From contig JAIOZI010000023.1 of assembly GCA_021740785.1 (NCBI GenBank), positions 1-64,000 of the forward strand: a stretch of DNA of 64,000 nucleotides. Reading direction: 5' to 3'. This document shows, piece by piece, positions 1,101 to 16,382 of this stretch. A program made the position numbers and the translations under genes. The notes below the pieces were generated by a model. That model had not been told where the DNA came from and ran no database searches. It saw nothing but the letters and a program-made list of their open reading frames with translations. How positions within the stretch are numbered: position 1 is the stretch's first letter; every line of letters starts with the position of its first letter. Source of the stretch: Melioribacteraceae bacterium (lineage in GTDB: Bacteria > Bacteroidota > Ignavibacteria > Ignavibacteriales > Melioribacteraceae).

Positions 1101-1124
1101 AAAAAAGGGGCTAAAAAGCCCCTT
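1101..1124 (-). terminator. Rho-independent terminator of ccmF
   Basis: Stem AAGGGGCT (1105-1112) pairs with AGCCCCTT (1117-1124) across an AAAA loop. Read on the minus strand it is followed by a run of T residues. It lies 25 bp after the ccmF stop and should end the ccm transcript. Confidence 0.85.
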
Positions 1125-1148
1125 CGAAAAATTTATATTAAACCAAAT

Positions 1149-3575
1149 TTAAGCTTGTGATTCCTTAGTTCTACGAACTGCTGAAATAATAAACCCGGCA
1201 ACCATAACAATAACACCGAGCCAAACTAATCCAATGAAAGGTTTAATACTTGCTTCCACTGTAATAACTTCTTTTCCTTTTGCTGTAGTTGTTTCAGCTG
1301 CGTCTTCGGTTTGTTCATCCATTGCTGCAACAATTATATTCACCTTACCTGATGCATCAAGATTTTCAAGTTTAATACTTAGGTTCAATTCTGGAATATC
1401 TTCAGCGGTAAATGATCTTTGACCTTTCTCATTAATCATCCGCGGTTCCACCGAATATGTTTTGCCATTCGCAAGCACGTCAATTTTAGCGCCGATGAAA
1501 AAGGATTCACCAGACTGCATAGCCGACATGAAATCTTCACTCATAACAAACTCGTTGAATCTAATTGTTTTACCATCCAACAGTGTCGATTGACCCTTAG
1601 TAAGTGAAATTATTTCGCCAGCAGTGTCATGATTATGTTCTTCACCGCTTGTTCCGTCGGTGTAACCAAGTGGAGAAATGTAAAAATCGTTTGTGAACCT
1701 GCTTAGTATATCGGGTTCGCGCATTAGACTGTTGTTGAATTCTGCAATATACATGACCGGTGCAATCACTGATGAACTGCCGCCGTCTTTTATTTCAATA
1801 TTAAAAGCGTACTTCTTCCCGTTTTCAATCAGGTCGTAACCCTTAAAAGTCAGATCATGTCCGAGAACGCTTACTGTTTCATTTTTAGGAAGATCAACCT
1901 GCATGTCGCGTGTGTATCCGCCGGTAAAAATAACACCGAGGAAAAATAGTGCAATGCCGACATGTGCAACATAAGCTCCGAGAAATAATTTTCTTCCTCT
2001 GAAAATTTTTATTGCAATTTCAGCGTTAACAAATAAGGCAAATGCCGAGGAGAGAACAAACAGTATGAGAGGAAAATCATAAATGCCTCCTCCAACAACA
2101 ATCAGCGCAGTAAGTATAAACGCGCCAATGAATGAATTTTTGGAGGATTTAAGCAAGTCCTTACCGTTAGTCGATTTCCATTTAAGCAGCAAACTAAAAC
2201 CATTTATTAATCCTATAATTATACCTATCGGTAAGTGCATTTCATCATAGAATCTAATTTCAACGGAAGTGCCGAAAATCGGAGCAGATGTACCGAATAA
2301 AATAATAATTGCTGATGCAATTAAAGTGACTGCACCGGTAAAAAGTGCCAACTCACGAGAAAGAACATTCTCTTCATGCGAAAAATTTTGGGTTAGAAAT
2401 TTCCACCGGTAAGCAACGGCTCCAAATCCAAGCAGAGTAAAAGACATAACAAAAAGCACGAGCAGTAAGTAAACCATCATACCAGGATCAACGAACGAAT
2501 GAACGGATGCATCGCCCAAAATACCGCTTCTTGTTAAAAACGTACTGTAAAGAACCAGTAAGTATGTCATAATACATAATATCAAATTCGTTTTAACAAA
2601 TTTGCCTGCGCCGCCTTTGTTTTGAGTCTTTTTCTGAACCAGCAAAGTATGAATAGAAGCGACTCCGATGATCCACGGAACAAGACTGGAATTTTCAACA
2701 GGATCCCAACCCCAGTAACCGCCCCATCCTAAAACACCGTAAGCCCAGTAACCGCCGAGCATTATCGCCAAACCTAATATCATTGTTCCGGTAAGCACCC
2801 ACGGCAGTGATTGTTTAACCCAATCATCGTACTTGTTTTTCATCAGAGCTGCAAAGGCAAAAGCAAATGGTACCGTAGCCATAGAAAATCCGACAAAAAG
2901 CATCGGCGGATGAATCTGCATCCAGAAATTCTGAAGGAGTGGATTCAATCCTTTTCCATCAATTATAAATTCATTCAGTGAAATTCCGTTCGCTTTAAGC
3001 ACTCCGACAAGTTCCGAACTCACCTTCACGAAATGTGAATCACTATTTGGATCGCTGAAGAAAAAACTTTGAAGAAACGGCATTGATAGAAAAGCTGAGT
3101 TTATACTTTTAACATCAATGAACTGCGGATCAGCCCAAATGTATGTGAATGGACTCTTTAACACAGGGCTTACCATCAGAAGTAAAAATGAGGTTGCCAA
3201 TGTGAAAACCATCATCACACGCGGTTCAAGATCATCTCTCTTCGAAGTATATTCAAGCAATATTAAACCGATTATCGCAGTAAAAAGAAGCCATAACATA
3301 AAGCTTCCTTCCTGACCTGCATAAAAGGTTGACATCAGCAGTCCCATTGGTAACTCAGAATTGCTGTAGCTGTAAACATACTTGAACTGATATTGATGTG
3401 TTAAAATTGCATGAAGCAGCATAGCGCTTGCGGCAATAACGGATACTGCAGTTATATGATAACCAAGGCGGGCTAACTTCAATGTATTTGTATAGCCTTT
3501 ATTAGTATAATAATACATTATGATCGTAAATATACTGGCAATAAATGCCACGGTAATTAAGATATTACCAATCAT
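1149..3575 (-). CDS. ccmF: Cytochrome c maturation heme lyase CcmF
   Basis: Polytopic inner-membrane protein of 808 residues that, in the Ccm (system I) pathway, passes heme from holo-CcmE to apocytochrome c in the periplasm. The tryptophan-rich WWD motif is at about residues 284-300 (WGGYWGWDPVENSS), and the family block NPLLQNFWMQIHPP is at 211-224. Many membrane helices are visible, with a large C-terminal periplasmic section (about 560-770) before a last helix (GLVWLGVIVMVAGFII). It is longer than usual for CcmF, partly because residues 151-210 carry an insertion between the conserved pre-insert region and the NPLLQ block. A strong ribosome-binding site (AGGAAGGAG) precedes the ATG. It is last in the ccmC-D-E-F run, and its substrates may include the octaheme cytochrome encoded at 15-16.4 kb. 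Confidence 0.93.
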   Translation of the reverse strand: MIGNILITVAFIASIFTIIMYYYTNKGYTNTLKLARLGYHITAVSVIAASAMLLHAILTHQYQFKYVYSYSNSELPMGLLMSTFYAGQEGSFMLWLLFTAIIGLILLEYTSKRDDLEPRVMMVFTLATSFLLLMVSPVLKSPFTYIWADPQFIDVKSINSAFLSMPFLQSFFFSDPNSDSHFVKVSSELVGVLKANGISLNEFIIDGKGLNPLLQNFWMQIHPPMLFVGFSMATVPFAFAFAALMKNKYDDWVKQSLPWVLTGTMILGLAIMLGGYWAYGVLGWGGYWGWDPVENSSLVPWIIGVASIHTLLVQKKTQNKGGAGKFVKTNLILCIMTYLLVLYSTFLTRSGILGDASVHSFVDPGMMVYLLLVLFVMSFTLLGFGAVAYRWKFLTQNFSHEENVLSRELALFTGAVTLIASAIIILFGTSAPIFGTSVEIRFYDEMHLPIGIIIGLINGFSLLLKWKSTNGKDLLKSSKNSFIGAFILTALIVVGGGIYDFPLILFVLSSAFALFVNAEIAIKIFRGRKLFLGAYVAHVGIALFFLGVIFTGGYTRDMQVDLPKNETVSVLGHDLTFKGYDLIENGKKYAFNIEIKDGGSSSVIAPVMYIAEFNNSLMREPDILSRFTNDFYISPLGYTDGTSGEEHNHDTAGEIISLTKGQSTLLDGKTIRFNEFVMSEDFMSAMQSGESFFIGAKIDVLANGKTYSVEPRMINEKGQRSFTAEDIPELNLSIKLENLDASGKVNIIVAAMDEQTEDAAETTTAKGKEVITVEASIKPFIGLVWLGVIVMVAGFIISAVRRTKESQA

Positions 3576-3606: not shown

Positions 3607-3993
3607 TTAGCTGGCTTCCTGCGGCATCTGCTCTTCATATTTTGAAGGGCATTTTGTCAAAATATCTGATGCTTGAAAATACCCGTTTTGATATTTCCCC
3701 GTTACCACCATGCTAGTGCAGCTTTCGAAATTGTTTGGGATTGATCCATTGTAAACAACTTTAATTTCATTCCCGTTGTTATCACGCAGGAAAAACGTGA
3801 GGATTCTTTTACTTGAATTGAATTGGTAATGTTTCTCCTTAACCCATTCGCCGGTAGCTTTTATGGTTTTATCCACAGTCTTAATTTTTGTGAAATCATT
3901 TTCGTAACTAACATTTGTTTGGGTAAAAAGAAACAACATAAATCCTAGAAACACTACAATTATTCCACCACCGAATATATATTTATTTTTCAT
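3607..3993 (-). CDS. ccmE: Cytochrome c maturation heme chaperone CcmE, CxxxY type
   Basis: Membrane-anchored periplasmic heme chaperone of 128 residues that binds heme covalently and hands it to CcmF. An N-terminal membrane anchor (about 7-25) is followed by an OB-fold-like domain containing the VVTGKYQNGYFQASDILTKC region. The classical heme-binding HxxxY motif is replaced by C115-P-S-K-Y119. CxxxY variants are known from some archaea and Desulfovibrio, where the cysteine is the heme attachment residue. The ATG lies inside the last codons of ccmD (11-bp overlap), so translation is probably coupled. The short tail after the motif (EEQMPQEAS) is normal for the family. Confidence 0.92.
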   Translation of the reverse strand: MKNKYIFGGGIIVVFLGFMLFLFTQTNVSYENDFTKIKTVDKTIKATGEWVKEKHYQFNSSKRILTFFLRDNNGNEIKVVYNGSIPNNFESCTSMVVTGKYQNGYFQASDILTKCPSKYEEQMPQEAS

Positions 3994-4132
3994 CTGATAA
4001 TTCTCCTTTTAGTTCTTTTTCTATATCACTCAACCGGTTATCTGTTTTATAAAGAAACAGAAAAATTCCCGTCCAAACAACTAAAACAATGAACAACACT
4101 ATGTATATTGAATTTTGTTCAAGAAATTCCAT
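3983..4132 (-). CDS. ccmD: CcmD-like small membrane protein
   Basis: A 49-residue open frame between ccmC and ccmE. It starts MEFLEQNSIYIVLF and has one hydrophobic helix (about 9-28, with VVWTGIFLFLY at its end) followed by a charged tail (KTDNRLSDIEKELKGEL). This is the topology and position expected of CcmD, which in other bacteria helps release holo-CcmE from the CcmABC complex. Its stop overlaps the start of ccmE by 11 bp, and it begins 18 bp after ccmC. Identification rests on size, topology and position, because CcmD sequences are poorly conserved. Confidence 0.8.
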   Translation of the reverse strand: MEFLEQNSIYIVLFIVLVVWTGIFLFLYKTDNRLSDIEKELKGELSDEK

Positions 4133-4150: not shown

Positions 4151-4849
4151 TTAAAGTATTTTTTTAGTCAACTTATCTTTAATGATAATTGACTTATAAC
4201 TGATATTCCACATCCAATAATATAATATAGTGAAAGCAAATAACGAGGTATAAAAAACCACTTGCATGTTAGAGTTCATTTTGAAATCGACAACGGGACC
4301 TGAAGTATCGTCATTTGCTGAACCGGGATGCAAACCTGTCATTATTCTCGGCATAATAAAAATAAAGAACGGAACAGTCAAAAATGCAATCACGGAATAA
4401 ACTGCTGAGAGCCTTGCTCTTTTATCCTCATTTTCAACTGCTGAACGTAAAGCAAAAAGCGAGCCATAAATTAACAATAAAATAAAAATGCTTGTTTCCC
4501 TGGGATCCCAATGCCAAAATGCTCCCCAAGTGAATTTTGCCCAGATCGAACCGGTAACAGTTGCCAGAATACTGAATACCATTCCCAATTGAAGTGCTGC
4601 ATTAGATTTTGCATCATCATCTAAATTCTTATTTTTGAGATATTTTACCCCGTAAATCATCGCCATTAAGAATGCTACCACAGATAACCATGCGGTCGGC
4701 ACATGGAAAAAGATAATCTTTGCTTTCTCCTCTAAACCTGGAATAAATGGGAATTCATACCAGGCTGACGGCTGCTGTACTATAGGAAATGATATGCCTG
4801 CTATTATTACTAAACACATCAACAGAAATAACAATATTTTCCAAATCAT
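4151..4849 (-). CDS. ccmC: Heme exporter/handling protein CcmC
   Basis: Inner-membrane protein of 232 residues that loads heme onto CcmE. About six membrane helices flank the WWD motif at residues 108-119 (WGAFWHWDPRET). The two periplasmic heme-ligand histidines of the family are visible as H49 (FFHVPTAW) and the histidine of MTGLHPG. It is the first gene of this ccm run. No ccmA or ccmB lies upstream, where they are usually found; instead there is a sensor kinase on the same strand, 157 bp away. The gene has its own upstream gap, probably with the promoter, and a purine-rich ribosome-binding site (AGAAGAAA). Confidence 0.93.
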   Translation of the reverse strand: MIWKILLFLLMCLVIIAGISFPIVQQPSAWYEFPFIPGLEEKAKIIFFHVPTAWLSVVAFLMAMIYGVKYLKNKNLDDDAKSNAALQLGMVFSILATVTGSIWAKFTWGAFWHWDPRETSIFILLLIYGSLFALRSAVENEDKRARLSAVYSVIAFLTVPFFIFIMPRIMTGLHPGSANDDTSGPVVDFKMNSNMQVVFYTSLFAFTILYYWMWNISYKSIIIKDKLTKKIL

Positions 4850-5006: not shown

Positions 5007-8000
5007 TCAGCCGACAACAGGCACTATTATCTTGATTTTTGTTCCACTACCTATTTCTGATACTAACTCAAATTTACCGCCGATAAATTCAGCGCGCTGG
5101 TAAATATTTCTCAACCCGAATCCTTTTCCCCTCCCATTTTTGATTGCGTCAAAATCTGCATCAAATCCCTTACCGTTATCTTCTATTTCTACAATCAACT
5201 CATCTTCCGATTCTTCCAGTTTAACAAAAGCTTCTGTACATCCGGAGTGCTTAACAATATTATTAAGCGCTTCTTGTATTATTCTATAAATTGCCAATTC
5301 ATATTTATCGTCGAACTTTTTGTTATAATTTACATTGAAAAATTCTATGTTAATTTTTTTTGTTTTTCTTATCTTACTGCACATTAAATCAATGGCAGTT
5401 ACCATTCCGAATTTATCAATTTCAACCGGCTGCAAATCATAGACTATATTTCTTAACTCATGATGTGCGCGCAGTACCAAATCGAGAGCTTCCGATTTAT
5501 AATTTTCTGATTCCTTTTTTCCCGCACCTGAAATTTCCAATTTAATTTTCGCGCTCGTTAATATTTGCCCTAGATCATCGTGCAAATCCCTCGACATTCT
5601 TTTCCGTTCATTTTCAATTGTTTCCAATATCGCTTCGGATCTTATTCTCTGCTCATGAAACTTCCTATTTATCTCTTCAATTTTCATCAACTGTGTTACA
5701 TCTTCAACAAGATTCACAACTCTATTTACATCCCCGCTTTCACTTTGAATTGAATAAAACCTGAATACGAACCATTTCTTGAATACATTGTCGTACAAAA
5801 TATTATCCGCTTGATTAATAAAAACCGGTTTTGTTGTAAATGATCCGCCGCTTTCAAATACTTTATTAATCTTCGGAAACTCCGGATTTTCAAGAACCAG
5901 GTTATCCCGGAAAAAATTATATGTTGATGACAATTCCCCCAACTCAGAAATATCGAATATGGTTTGAATTGCAGAATTAATTTCAAGCAAATTTCCCGAG
6001 TTGTCATAAACCAATATTCCCAGCGGGGATTGATCAATCAAAGCGCTCAATTCTTTGGTTTTATCTTTAACTCTTTCTTCCAGTTCTATATTAATGTTCT
6101 TTAACGTTTCTTGTGCTTTTTTATATTCCGTAATATCCTTGATGATTACAACAATATTCATCGTCCCGGTTTTATCATCGGTTATAACAGTTGAATTAAT
6201 TTCGGCTGGGAATTCAGAGCCGTCATTCTTTATTAATTGATACTCAATTCCCCGTCCCTTTTTATCTTCAAACCGCTTCTGTAATTCTTCTCCAGCTCTT
6301 TTACGGTCAGCCTCGCTTACAATGTCAAGCGCACTTTTTCCAATCAACCCAGAAAATTTATCAACTCCAAATTGTATTAACGACTGTCGATTACAAAATT
6401 TTATTTTAACGTTTCGGTCAAGTATCAGAATGCTTTCGGGAGATGTTTCAACAACCGTTCTATAGCGCTGTTCCGAATCTCGTAATTCTTCGGTTCTTTT
6501 CTTAACGTCGTTTTCAAGTTTTTTACTGTATCTTTTTTGTGAATAATAATTTTGAACGCCATAGAGTATAAATCCCAAAAGCACCACTGCAATTGAATGA
6601 AACCAAAACTGGTTGTAAAACGGTTCATTGATTACAATCTTAGCGGTCGTAACCTCACTACTCCAGATGCCGGATGCATTCCGGGCGGAAACCACAAATG
6701 TATAATCCCCTTCTTCGAGATTTGTAAAACGAGCTTGAGATTCGGTGGTAATAAATTCATCAACCCACTTACCGCTTTTATCTTTCAGTGCAACTTTATA
6801 ACGAATTGCGTTTTCATCAATGAAGGTTAATGCCCTATAATGAATTGAAATATTATATTGATTATAACCCAAATCCAATGGCTCATCAAGCTTATATCTT
6901 GTGCCTTCAGCATCTTCAAGATAAAGGATTTCAATATTTGGTTTAGGTGGAGTGTATTCCGCATAGTCTTCGTAAAAACATGATAACCCATTATCACATC
7001 CAATCCAAAATCTTTCGTCGCTGTCATAAAATGCTGCCGATCTGTTTGTTTCTATTCCGGCTAATCCATCCTGAACTGTGTAGTGTTCATATTTACCGTT
7101 AAAGTATCTTATCACTCCGTCATCGGTACCGAACCAAATATTTTCTTTATTTCCTTTTATAAAATAGACTGGTCTGTTTATTGAATAACTGCCGTCGAAA
7201 TATTTTTCCAATCTTCCTTTATTTTCGATATACAATCCATCCATTGTACCAACAAAAACCTTGCGATCTGAATGTTGGTAAACTGCAAATACATTATTTC
7301 CGTTTCGTTCTTGTGCAGTTGAAAGTTTGGCATCACTATCACTCATTAAAATTAGACCCTGAAAAGTAGCAGCGGCAACAATACCGTTTTCAAGCTCATA
7401 AAATTTACGTACGAATAATTCTTCCGGGATTTTTAATTGGGGACGGTTTAGACTTTTACCTACTAATAAAAATATTCCTTTATCTGTTCCGACCCATTTT
7501 CGTCCTTTACTATCAATATAAATTCCGTTGAATACAAGTTCGTCATCACTATAAAGCCAGTTGATTTTTCCCTTGGAAGAAATAGTACCGATACCTTGCT
7601 GCTGCGATGTAAAATATATTTTGCTGCCATCATTAAAAACATCCAAGACCCTGGTGGTTAGAGTCGATCGTCCATCAATAGAAACGATAAAAGGAATTAT
7701 GGTAAACTGATCATCTTTGGATAAAGTAAAACCCCGGTTATGTGCGAAAAGAAAAGTGCCGTCATCAAACTGAGATACTGCTGTAACTTCATCTTCCAAC
7801 AGACCGGTTAATTCATAATAATTAATAAATGGAATACTCCGTACTTTGGTTACACCACGAAGAGATGTTACCCACAAATTGTTTTCCCTATCGACAAAGA
7901 CTGATGTAGCGCCGTCCGTAAGATAACTGGTTTTTCTGCCGAGCAAATCATAGTTGCCGGTTTTGCGATTCAAAAAGAAAATCTGCCGACGATTTCCGAA

Positions 8001-8813
8001 ATAAATTCTGTTTACTTTATCTAGCGCAAAATAGAATTCGAGTCCGCTTTTAATTATAGGAGAATCTAAATTATCTGCAACAATTTTAAAATGATCATCT
8101 TTAATAAAACCAATCCAATTACTTCCATAAATCCAAAGCTTATCTTTTCTATCATCAAACCGGCTGCTTAAAATTGTCCGGTCCGGGAAGTCGAATTTGA
8201 GATTTAAATCATTATTAAATAAAAAATTATCAAGTACGGAAATCCCTCTAAGAGTGGACAGATAAAATTTGCTGTCATTCACCGAAACATGGAAAATAGT
8301 ATTATCAGCAAGACCATCCTTTTCCGATAACAAATACCAGATATTTCCATTAAAAATAAATAGCCCGATATTCGAGCCGACAGCAACAACCGGCTTTTGA
8401 TCCTTCTGGTATACTGCAAATGAAGTCGCAGTTTTGTTCGATTTAATGTACTTAATTATTGAAGGGATTTCATTCCATTTGTCCCCATCAAAGTATACAA
8501 TCGATTCACCCAGAAACGATGGGAGAGCCCAAATATTACCATTATTATCCCGAGTAAGCTTAATGTAATGAGTTTCGGGTAAACCATCCTTTTCCGTATA
8601 ATTGGTCCACTCTACACCATCATATTTGCAGATCCCGGTTCTATGTGCGAACCACATATTTCCGATTGAATCTTGTACGGCATCATAAATAAACGGGTTT
8701 GGCAGACCGTCACGGGGTGTGTAAGTTTTAACACTGTAATTCTGTGACAAACAAATATCACTAATGAAAAATAAAACCAAACAAAACAGTATACAGATTC
8801 GTCTAAACTCCAT
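5007..8813 (-). CDS. Hybrid-type sensor histidine kinase with Reg_prop propeller, PAS and HisKA_3 domains
   Basis: Very large membrane sensor (about 1268 residues from the ATG at 8813; a TTG three codons upstream is also possible). Order: signal peptide (FCLVLFFISDICLSQ), a periplasmic propeller of Reg_prop-type repeats (GLPNPFIYDAVQDSIGNMWF and similar) to about residue 640, a Y_Y_Y-type beta-sandwich, one membrane helix near 750 (SIAVVLLGFILYGV), a coiled coil, two PAS domains, and a NarL-type kinase core. The phosphoacceptor histidine lies in RMSRDLHDDLGQ near the C-terminal 200 residues. The ATP-binding N and G boxes are EALNNIVKHS, EDNGKGF and GKGFGLRNI. No receiver domain or LuxR-type response regulator is fused or adjacent, so its partner is elsewhere. 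The ligand is unknown; similar kinases in Bacteroidota often sense polysaccharide fragments. Confidence 0.9.
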   Translation of the reverse strand: MEFRRICILFCLVLFFISDICLSQNYSVKTYTPRDGLPNPFIYDAVQDSIGNMWFAHRTGICKYDGVEWTNYTEKDGLPETHYIKLTRDNNGNIWALPSFLGESIVYFDGDKWNEIPSIIKYIKSNKTATSFAVYQKDQKPVVAVGSNIGLFIFNGNIWYLLSEKDGLADNTIFHVSVNDSKFYLSTLRGISVLDNFLFNNDLNLKFDFPDRTILSSRFDDRKDKLWIYGSNWIGFIKDDHFKIVADNLDSPIIKSGLEFYFALDKVNRIYFGNRRQIFFLNRKTGNYDLLGRKTSYLTDGATSVFVDRENNLWVTSLRGVTKVRSIPFINYYELTGLLEDEVTAVSQFDDGTFLFAHNRGFTLSKDDQFTIIPFIVSIDGRSTLTTRVLDVFNDGSKIYFTSQQQGIGTISSKGKINWLYSDDELVFNGIYIDSKGRKWVGTDKGIFLLVGKSLNRPQLKIPEELFVRKFYELENGIVAAATFQGLILMSDSDAKLSTAQERNGNNVFAVYQHSDRKVFVGTMDGLYIENKGRLEKYFDGSYSINRPVYFIKGNKENIWFGTDDGVIRYFNGKYEHYTVQDGLAGIETNRSAAFYDSDERFWIGCDNGLSCFYEDYAEYTPPKPNIEILYLEDAEGTRYKLDEPLDLGYNQYNISIHYRALTFIDENAIRYKVALKDKSGKWVDEFITTESQARFTNLEEGDYTFVVSARNASGIWSSEVTTAKIVINEPFYNQFWFHSIAVVLLGFILYGVQNYYSQKRYSKKLENDVKKRTEELRDSEQRYRTVVETSPESILILDRNVKIKFCNRQSLIQFGVDKFSGLIGKSALDIVSEADRKRAGEELQKRFEDKKGRGIEYQLIKNDGSEFPAEINSTVITDDKTGTMNIVVIIKDITEYKKAQETLKNINIELEERVKDKTKELSALIDQSPLGILVYDNSGNLLEINSAIQTIFDISELGELSSTYNFFRDNLVLENPEFPKINKVFESGGSFTTKPVFINQADNILYDNVFKKWFVFRFYSIQSESGDVNRVVNLVEDVTQLMKIEEINRKFHEQRIRSEAILETIENERKRMSRDLHDDLGQILTSAKIKLEISGAGKKESENYKSEALDLVLRAHHELRNIVYDLQPVEIDKFGMVTAIDLMCSKIRKTKKINIEFFNVNYNKKFDDKYELAIYRIIQEALNNIVKHSGCTEAFVKLEESEDELIVEIEDNGKGFDADFDAIKNGRGKGFGLRNIYQRAEFIGGKFELVSEIGSGTKIKIIVPVVG

Positions 8814-8952
8814 GAAAGCCAAAATTTATTTAGGAATTTATTAAAAAATATAATGTAATTATATCACTAAAACAGAAACTAATTGCAAATAAAAGAATAC
8901 ATTTCGATTTGAAGTAACAAATAGTTTTCGGCACTGATATTGGCAAGAATAT

Positions 8953-14650: not shown

Positions 14651-15000
14651 TTATAATTTTTTAGCGTATCTGAAGATTTTAATTAATGGGGGAATTAAAA
14701 CTATTACCGGAATAAAAAGCCAAAAATAGAAGAATGAATTATTCTCATCAATATTAGTAAAAAAGGGAATCGCACCTAAAATTATAAGCACGGTTCCCCA
14801 TCTAATTAATTCTCTTGCACAGTATTCATTCAGTTTGTACCAAATCTCATCGGATTCATATGACTTTTTAATTCGAATTCCGTAAAGATCATTCATCTTT
14901 ATTTTTCTTTTCAACAGCGGAATACTCAAACCAACGTAAACAATTCCCGTAAATAAAAATAGATGACGGTAATTATACCAGCCGCAGAATTTTTCATCAT
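14651..15000 (-). pseudogene. SdpI-family membrane protein gene with a one-base frameshift
   Basis: The C-terminal 92 residues read in one frame: SIPLLKRKIKMNDLYGIRI, then DEIWYKLNEYCARELI and two membrane helices. This carries the SdpI signature (N..YGIR, W..N..A). That frame has no ATG, only a TTG at 14929 inside the first helix. In another frame an ATG at 15000 overlaps the stop of the octaheme cytochrome gene (ATGA) and starts MMKNSAAGIITVIYF, but it stops within 24 codons. Adding one T to the T5 run at 14955-14959 joins both frames into a normal first helix (ITVIYFLFTGIVYVGL) and a 116-residue SdpI protein. So this is a recent frameshift, a sequencing or assembly error, or slippage. Intact relatives are membrane proteins linked in Bacillus to SdpC toxin immunity; most homologues have no known role. 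Confidence 0.8.
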
Positions 15001-16382
15001 TTCTTGATTAATTTATTCTTTACGCGACCCCCCTTAGATAGCGGATCGCCTTTGTAACCGAGCGCTTTCCAATCCAAAAGATTTTCACCTCGTACCCCGT
15101 GACAACTGGTACATTTCAGCGATTGGTCTGCCGGTGCAACCATGTGGTTAAGCGGCCAATACATTTCGGTTTCGATAAAATCATAAGAGCCGGAGTACTC
15201 CAAATTGATTGATGCCATACCAATTTCGGAAGCTTTATTCCAATTATAAGTTTTCCAATATCCGTCCTTACCGAACAAATTTGGCACTATTAAGTAATTG
15301 TTTTCATCATCATAAATTTGTTTACCTCTCATAATTTTGAAAGGAGAAATCTTGGAATCAGATTCGCTGATATTTCCTTTGGGATTATTAAGTTTTACAA
15401 TTTCATTCGATTTTACTTTATCGCCGATTACATAAATATCCATTTTTCCATTATGCCATGTATACTCAGGTTGAAGATTCTTCTGCCATTTAAACTCACC
15501 TTTCATTTTTGAATATGTCGCTAGCCCTAAAGAATCCAATTCAGCTTCTCTATCCATTCCGGCTTTTGACCAATCCCACCATGTTTTGGTCGGTATTACT
15601 TTTGCCACATAGGGAATATGACATGTTTCACACGCAACGTGTTCGGTGTGATTGTTAAGAATACTTTTTTCATGAGGTACCGAATCATGGCAGTCGATAC
15701 ACGATATATGATTTGTATCTTCAGCCATCGATGCATGCCCGGCTCCCGCGATTTTATGTTCAGTCGTAACATGACATTCAGTACAGGAAAAATCAAAACC
15801 TCCCATGTGAATATCAACTTCCATATCAGGATCATAAAGACTGTCATCCATATCGCCATGCTTAACGCCTGTACCGCCGCCGCCGTCAAAATGACAAGTT
15901 CCGCAATTAGCGCGCCCCGGCGTTGCTACGCTTTGAGCTGCTGCAACTAAATCTACATCTTCGCCAGGCATTCCTGCTGCGGTTGGAACTTTAACATATT
16001 CCCCGGTTTGTTCGTGACAAACAAGACAATCGATATTAGCCGGATCTGAAAAATCAAACGAATCATCTTTCCAGCCGTAACCGATATGGCAGCTTGTACA
16101 TCTCGGTTCATTAGATGAAACAGCTATACAAAAATTATTAATAATATTTTTCTTACCGAGTGCAAGTAATCGTCCGTCTTCCATTTCAAATTCTTCACCT
16201 ATCCAATTCCAATGTCGAGAATCTAATACTTCTTCTCCGACTCCGTCGTGACACATCAAACAAGTTTCAGTAACTTCCTGCGGTGTTTCAAAAGGACCTT
16301 CGATTAATTCGGAATGATCTTGTGCAATAATAAAATTAAATGATCCTATCAAAAAGAACAGTAGGAATAAATCTTTAAACAT
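14997..16382 (-). CDS. Octaheme cytochrome c, tetrathionate reductase family
   Basis: A periplasmic multiheme protein of 461 residues with a signal peptide (LFLLFFLIGSFNFIIAQ). Eight CxxCH motifs begin at C41, C95, C119, C160, C200, C228, C251 and C424. The C-terminal block, with LNHMVAPADQSLKCTSCHG then LLDWKALGYKGDP, is characteristic of the octaheme tetrathionate reductase (OTR) family. OTR-type proteins reduce tetrathionate, nitrite or hydroxylamine in vitro; the physiological substrate is often uncertain. Heme attachment would need the Ccm system encoded at 1.1-4.8 kb. It is first in a two-gene unit, and its stop overlaps the SdpI-like start. It diverges from the chemoreceptor gene across a 165-bp gap. 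Confidence 0.88.
   Translation of the reverse strand: MFKDLFLLFFLIGSFNFIIAQDHSELIEGPFETPQEVTETCLMCHDGVGEEVLDSRHWNWIGEEFEMEDGRLLALGKKNIINNFCIAVSSNEPRCTSCHIGYGWKDDSFDFSDPANIDCLVCHEQTGEYVKVPTAAGMPGEDVDLVAAAQSVATPGRANCGTCHFDGGGGTGVKHGDMDDSLYDPDMEVDIHMGGFDFSCTECHVTTEHKIAGAGHASMAEDTNHISCIDCHDSVPHEKSILNNHTEHVACETCHIPYVAKVIPTKTWWDWSKAGMDREAELDSLGLATYSKMKGEFKWQKNLQPEYTWHNGKMDIYVIGDKVKSNEIVKLNNPKGNISESDSKISPFKIMRGKQIYDDENNYLIVPNLFGKDGYWKTYNWNKASEIGMASINLEYSGSYDFIETEMYWPLNHMVAPADQSLKCTSCHGVRGENLLDWKALGYKGDPLSKGGRVKNKLIKK

Follow-up and report, generated by a model that had tools for sequence, protein, structure and literature searches.

Cysteine-type CcmE is the norm among the CcmE read in the phylum of a Melioribacteraceae bacterium and is accompanied by a proline at the heme site of CcmC

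Introduction

A ccmE gene in the genome of a Melioribacteraceae bacterium encodes a cysteine at the position of the heme-binding histidine of the E. coli protein, and it stands beside genes for CcmC and CcmF. It lies in a 64,000-nucleotide stretch (the window, positions 1 to 64,000 of contig JAIOZI010000023.1, assembly GCA_021740785.1). Is this Cys-type CcmE an oddity of one bacterium or the regular heme chaperone of its lineage, and which partners go with it? An earlier reading, made from the sequence alone, had held that the partners of Cys-type CcmE are worth mapping, and this was judged right.

Variant Ccm systems have been named 'System I*', and CPSKY is the motif of most variant CcmE (25 of 36 bacterial genomes; PMC3601427). 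They have been reported from delta-proteobacteria, Chloroflexi and Firmicutes, with CcmH present in about one third. Absence of CcmH, a feature of System I* as first described, was later no longer regarded as characteristic (PMC3601427). A CXXXY CcmE is also ascribed to some bacteria in PMC9084895. Judged from the listings of a literature search, nothing was evident on CcmE in Bacteroidetes or on cytochrome c maturation in Ignavibacter.

Results

A Cys-type CcmE beside classical CcmC and CcmF

The window contains a ccmC-ccmD-ccmE-ccmF block on the minus strand. The ccmE gene (3607-3993, minus strand) encodes 128 aa and matches PF03100 CcmE with 59.4 bits. In translation its C-terminal heme site reads ...ILTKCPSKY, and the CPSKY motif, Cys115 to Tyr119, is encoded at 3637-3651 (minus strand). 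Alignment with the CcmE of E. coli and D. vulgaris bore out the replacement of the heme-binding His by Cys, as the sequence-only reading had proposed. The AlphaFold model (pLDDT 87.7) has one N-terminal membrane helix and an OB-type barrel, and its Foldseek matches in the PDB include the CcmE structures 8ce8_E, 1lm0, 1j6q, 2kct and 1sr3, among other OB folds.

The ccmD gene (3983-4132, minus strand; 49 aa by translation) overlaps ccmE by 11 bases and matches TIGR04391 CcmD_alt_fam with 31.8 bits (cut-off 24). The ccmC gene (4151-4849, minus strand) encodes a 232-aa WWD protein, the one from which CcmE receives its heme. It scores 92.8 bits against PF01578, and 115 bits against TIGR01191, below the cut-off of 186. 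In alignment with E. coli, CcmC retains the WGxxWxWD loop and both periplasmic His, H49 and H174. The second of these lies in an LHPGS motif (4319-4333, minus strand), where H174 is followed by Pro175; E. coli has H184-Q185.

The ccmF gene (1149-3575, minus strand) encodes an 808-aa heme lyase with PF01578 and PF16327 domains. Aligned with E. coli CcmF, it retains the WWD motif and four invariant His (H222, H309, H359 and H538), which we take to be the heme His. Two stretches are inserted relative to the E. coli protein, one of some 50 aa around residues 150-200 and one of some 100 aa ahead of the last helix. The claim that WWD-type CcmC and CcmF of classical kind accompany the Cys-type CcmE was thus confirmed. 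A terminator-like stem-loop (1104-1125, minus strand), found by consensus scan only, lies 3' of ccmF. Upstream of ccmC, a large sensor histidine kinase is encoded on the same strand (5007-8822). No ccmG and no ccmH were found within the ccmC-ccmD-ccmE-ccmF block. A protein with eight CXXCH motifs, counted by eye in the ORF translation, is encoded at 14997-16382 (minus strand); this multiheme cytochrome c is a likely substrate of the Ccm system.

Every CcmE read from the home phylum is of the Cys-type

CcmE was found in 253 of 395 sampled genomes of the home phylum, delimited as in the genome tool. All 94 CcmE read from these 253 genomes were of the Cys-type (93 CPSKY and 1 CPSRY); they comprise the window, 30 loci, 33 further regions and another 30 loci. 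The 33 remained from 40 regions after removal of six repeats and of one region that held a CcmH, and the whole set amounted to 102 entries with repeats. Because Cys-Pro-Ser-[KR]-Tyr is found in every one of the 94, the Cys at this site is not due to chance. The fetched regions have the gene order ccm(AB)CDE(F), in which only genes matching the supplied queries are named. The Cys-type CcmE is therefore the norm for the home phylum among the CcmE read, and no oddity of one bacterium. This uniformity corrects the view of Cys-type CcmE as a rare exception.

A scan of named genomes found Cys-type CcmE in records titled Deltaproteobacteria, Deferribacteraceae, Seleniivibrio, Calditrichaeota, Chloroflexi, Myxococcota, Latescibacterota, Bathyarchaeota, Bacillus, Actinobacteria and Abditibacterium. 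The scan pattern required KCP, so these records are no measure of frequency. The sequence-only reading had described CxxxY CcmE as known from some archaea and Desulfovibrio. It was right that the variant is known, but this range is too narrow, since the type also occurs in many other phyla and in every CcmE read in the home phylum.

One residue of CcmC separates the two CcmE types

We compared the CcmC sequences that accompany the two CcmE types. The position that follows the second periplasmic His, Q185 in E. coli and P175 in the window, was Pro in all 136 Cys-type rows and Gln in all 47 His-type rows. Among the Cys-type rows, 134 read HP and 2 read SP, and the HP/HQ marker separates all 183 rows with letters; nine identical rows were set aside in this count, and two rows (one of each type) are gapped. 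The Cys-type rows come mostly from the home phylum (83) and from genomes of the named scan (49), with only 2 from Myxococcota.

Among 213 comparable columns of CcmC, this is the sole one without overlap between the His- and Cys-types. The column preceding the first periplasmic His is F in 121 Cys-type rows and V, A or I in most His-type rows, and one column near the WWD loop leans the same way as the residue-185 column. CcmF offers a weaker marker; at the column of E. coli T276, 19 of 22 His-type rows have T and 53 of 54 Cys-type rows have N.

H60 and H184 of E. coli CcmC are essential for holo-CcmE, and G186 and S187 have been mutated (PMC9616876). Q185 is not mentioned in the excerpts of that paper, and our literature search found no paper on CcmC Q185. 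A model places H60 and H184 close to H130 of CcmE (PMC10457321), whereas CcmCD is described as lacking axial ligands in PMC13141917.

These alignments point to CcmC residue 185 (Gln or Pro) as a marker of the CcmE version in use. Pro in place of Gln beside the second periplasmic His may help CcmC to fit the Cys-type CcmE. A bolder proposal, which we hold tentatively and consider improbable, is that residue 185 would act as a specificity switch of the loading site, with His-Gln loading His and His-Pro loading Cys. If it were true, the His- and Cys-types would be two ancient, non-interchangeable modules of CcmC, CcmE and CcmF, each with its own CcmH types, and the textbook chemistry of E. coli would be only one of two branches.

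The CcmE of a Halobacterium noricense plasmid (L425:6950-7375) ends in VRAHEGEE... and has neither CxxxY nor HxxxY. It is a possible independent test case for the CcmC marker.

The His/Cys label changes once on each tree

In CcmE trees built without the motif, the label changed once between His and Cys, with an SH-aLRT support of 97 for 162 rows and 91 for 175 typed rows from many phyla; loci of the named-genome scan were half-sampled, and 12 home-phylum CcmE were included. The CcmF tree also had one change (76 rows, Cys-type rows halved), with a support of only 62. One change was likewise found on the CcmC tree (74 rows, support 98, with long-branch warnings), from which rows outside 140-270 aa had been dropped. 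Because the label changes only once on each tree, the two chemistries have the appearance of a pair of old modules, each passed as a block from one phylum to another. For the same reason, the correlations with CcmC and with CcmH are not independent replicates.

Since His and Cys form one split, shared ancestry alone could explain the CcmC correlation. We lean slightly towards this explanation, according to which the CcmE residue, the HQ or HP of CcmC and the CcmH type would co-vary because two old lineages were inherited in blocks, and the residues would not be functionally coupled. The three trees agree with it. On the other side, the only non-overlapping CcmC column is invariant within both types and lies directly next to an essential heme-site His, and the two further columns that lean the same way also speak for coupling.

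The CcmH type differs between His- and Cys-type genomes

Outside the home phylum, by record title, CcmH was found above the cut-off in 28 of 50 genomes with Cys-type CcmE. A Cys-type CcmE thus does not require CcmH loss, and loss as its strict correlate was rejected. In 10 of the 28 genomes, CcmH lay near ccmE, inside the surrounding region of up to 14 kb that was retrieved. The same was found at L177, a second locus in the genome of L164, and both Bacillota plasmid operons with Cys-type CcmE also include CcmH.

The two types were then compared within one sample, a set around G428 from a phylum that has both types, taken as Myxococcota by the title of L180 (188 genomes, later widened to 235). 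CcmE was found in 171 and CcmH in 142 of the 188 genomes. Among the 110 of 171 CcmE that were read, 36 were His-type and 74 Cys-type. CcmH lay less than 6 kb from ccmE in 34 of the 36 His-type genomes versus 5 of the 74 Cys-type genomes. It was elsewhere in the genome in 2 of 36 versus 54 of 74, and absent in 0 of 36 versus 15 of 74.

The CcmH motif was classified in the 72 Myxococcota genomes in which both proteins were read, 36 of each type. His-type genomes had CxxCQ in 35 cases and CPICAG in one. In the Cys-type genomes we found SP[FY]CPG, in which the first Cys is gone (24), CxCG (7, with the CMCGGCQ of G510 grouped here and not under CxxCQ), CxGCAGK (3), one other motif and one LRCVVCQ. 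One His-type genome, G646, has a CcmH match at 1.8e-6 that lies outside this count. The LRCVVCQ protein belongs to G567, whose sole CcmE match reads CPSKF; this canonical CcmH (L262, contig C54) is alphaproteobacterial in look. The contig is possibly foreign, otherwise this CcmH is a true exception. Fused frames of 868-949 aa, with CcmF followed by a CcmH domain in one chain, were observed in Myxococcota at L268, L287, L302, L309, L318, L376, L384 and L385, all in Cys-type genomes.

The named controls that read His (nine Pseudomonadota records, Caballeronia, Deinococcus and two Pseudonocardia) have LRCxxCQ where their CcmH was read, with LRCPVCT in Pseudonocardia. Metabacillus and Cytobacillus have a CPSKY CcmE and a CcmH with PPGC. 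A strict absence of CxxC from Cys-type CcmH was rejected, as genomes titled Chloroflexi retain CPVCP. Overall, a CcmH with LRCxxC[Q/T] accompanies the His-type, and Cys-type genomes have no such CcmH or one with other motifs.

A divergent CcmH-like protein is encoded far from the ccm block

The genome of the window (4.85 Mb, 115 contigs, 99.88% complete) has one CcmB with an adjoining ABC ATPase, apart from the ccmCDEF block. We take this ATPase to be CcmA by its position and ABC family; it scores 90.8 against TIGR01189, under the cut-off of 131.6. Four proteins match PF01578. Two are the CcmC and CcmF of the window, the third is a second CcmF, encoded on contig C48, and the fourth, which is encoded in a cluster of heme-synthesis genes, we take to be HemX-like from its position.

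The sole PF03918 (CcmH) match in the genome, at 25-26 bits, is a 255-aa protein on contig C48. It combines two CcmH-like domains, in which CxCGxC...CxC motifs occur, with a zinc ribbon and a membrane helix, and it lacks LRCxxCQ. The second CcmF, 46% identical to that of the window, is encoded five genes away. The cluster (L008:10456-17456) also encodes an FtrD-like protein, an FtsX-type permease, an ABC ATPase, DUF2231, a CusA-like pump and heavy-metal-binding (HMBD/YHS) proteins. The pair of CcmH-like and FtrD-like proteins was found again in L042, L044-L047 and L049. The sequence-only reading had expected CxxxY types to lack some partners. This stood for the surroundings of the window ccmE, which no ccmH adjoins, but a divergent CcmH-like gene is present at a distant locus.

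The divergent protein could still work with the window system. A stronger version, which we find doubtful, is that this protein and the second CcmF form a working or second synthase fed by the window CcmE. The PF03918 match, the two CcmH-like domains and the nearby CcmF favour it. However, the cluster includes metal-handling genes, and across the phylum PF03918 matches were found in 11 of 395 genomes (4 above the cut-off, all in the window's own family). Two of the 11 match another part of the profile, and only 9 resemble the window type, versus 253 genomes with CcmE. The phylum as a whole therefore does not need this protein.

Discussion

Beside the observed gene content, CPSKY motif, conservation, single His/Cys split and uniformity of all CcmE read from the phylum, we set the following reading. 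The window CcmE is very probably the heme chaperone of a System I* type of cytochrome c maturation and the normal form in its phylum, with a chemistry that we infer. On the periplasmic side, heme would be offered by CcmAB and CcmCD and then taken up by Cys115 of CcmE, most likely as a thioether to a heme vinyl by analogy with Desulfovibrio and Methanosarcina, and Tyr119 would be a ligand of the heme iron. Finally, CcmF would move the heme onto the CXXCH motifs of apocytochromes, such as the eight-CXXCH protein, with no canonical CcmH involved.

In E. coli, the D. desulfuricans System I* needs no CcmG/H to produce cytochrome c, and the Cys-type CcmE of this system binds heme covalently (PMC3601427, PMC9084895). 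The CcmE of D. vulgaris (2KCT) binds ferric heme via its Cys without a covalent bond (PMC3884852), so covalency may not be general. Cys115 might then act only as a thiolate ligand of the heme iron, as in Cys-Pro heme motifs, with no covalent step in this lineage; the Cys-Pro in all 94 home-phylum CcmE would suit this. We regard it as unlikely, because a heme-stained band of M. acetivorans CcmE depends on C120 (PMC3601427, PMC9084895), which is required for heme attachment, and the C120A variant gave no heme-stained CcmE (PMC9084895).

That a His-type second CcmE does the work and the window copy is a relic can practically be dismissed, as a search for a second copy with HxxxY found one PF03100 match in the whole 99.88% complete assembly, the window gene itself, as the claim of a single CcmE implied, and this gene has an intact frame and a strictly conserved motif.

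The chaperone reading bears on how the bond between CcmE and heme is made and then broken, and on why the H130C variant of E. coli CcmE accepts heme but fails to pass it on (PMC9084895). With two deeply separated modules and a fully separating residue at the heme site of CcmC, the question of His versus Cys becomes testable by single-residue swaps.

Compared with classical System I (E. coli CcmABCDEFGH), the window has the same gene order C-D-E-F, the WWD motifs and the conserved His of CcmC and CcmF. In contrast, it has Cys for His130 of CcmE, Pro for Gln185 of CcmC, and no ccmG or ccmH in the block. Of the two marks of the classical system, HxxxY in CcmE and LRCxxC in CcmH, the genome has neither. 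The archaeal Ccm, as excerpted for Methanosarcina acetivorans (CcmABCEF; PMC9084895), shares the CXXXY CcmE with no CcmH/CcmI beside it, but the window has a CcmD (3983-4132) and a one-chain CcmF, whereas the archaeal CcmF is split. The Desulfovibrio-type System I* shares the CPSKY CcmE, the presence of CcmABCDF and the lack of a canonical CcmH; here the phylum is another one, ccmAB is unlinked from ccmCDEF, and a divergent CcmH-like gene lies at a remote locus. The window CcmE is thus an ordinary member of the published System I* variant, and the phylum-wide uniformity and the CcmC marker lift the finding beyond it.
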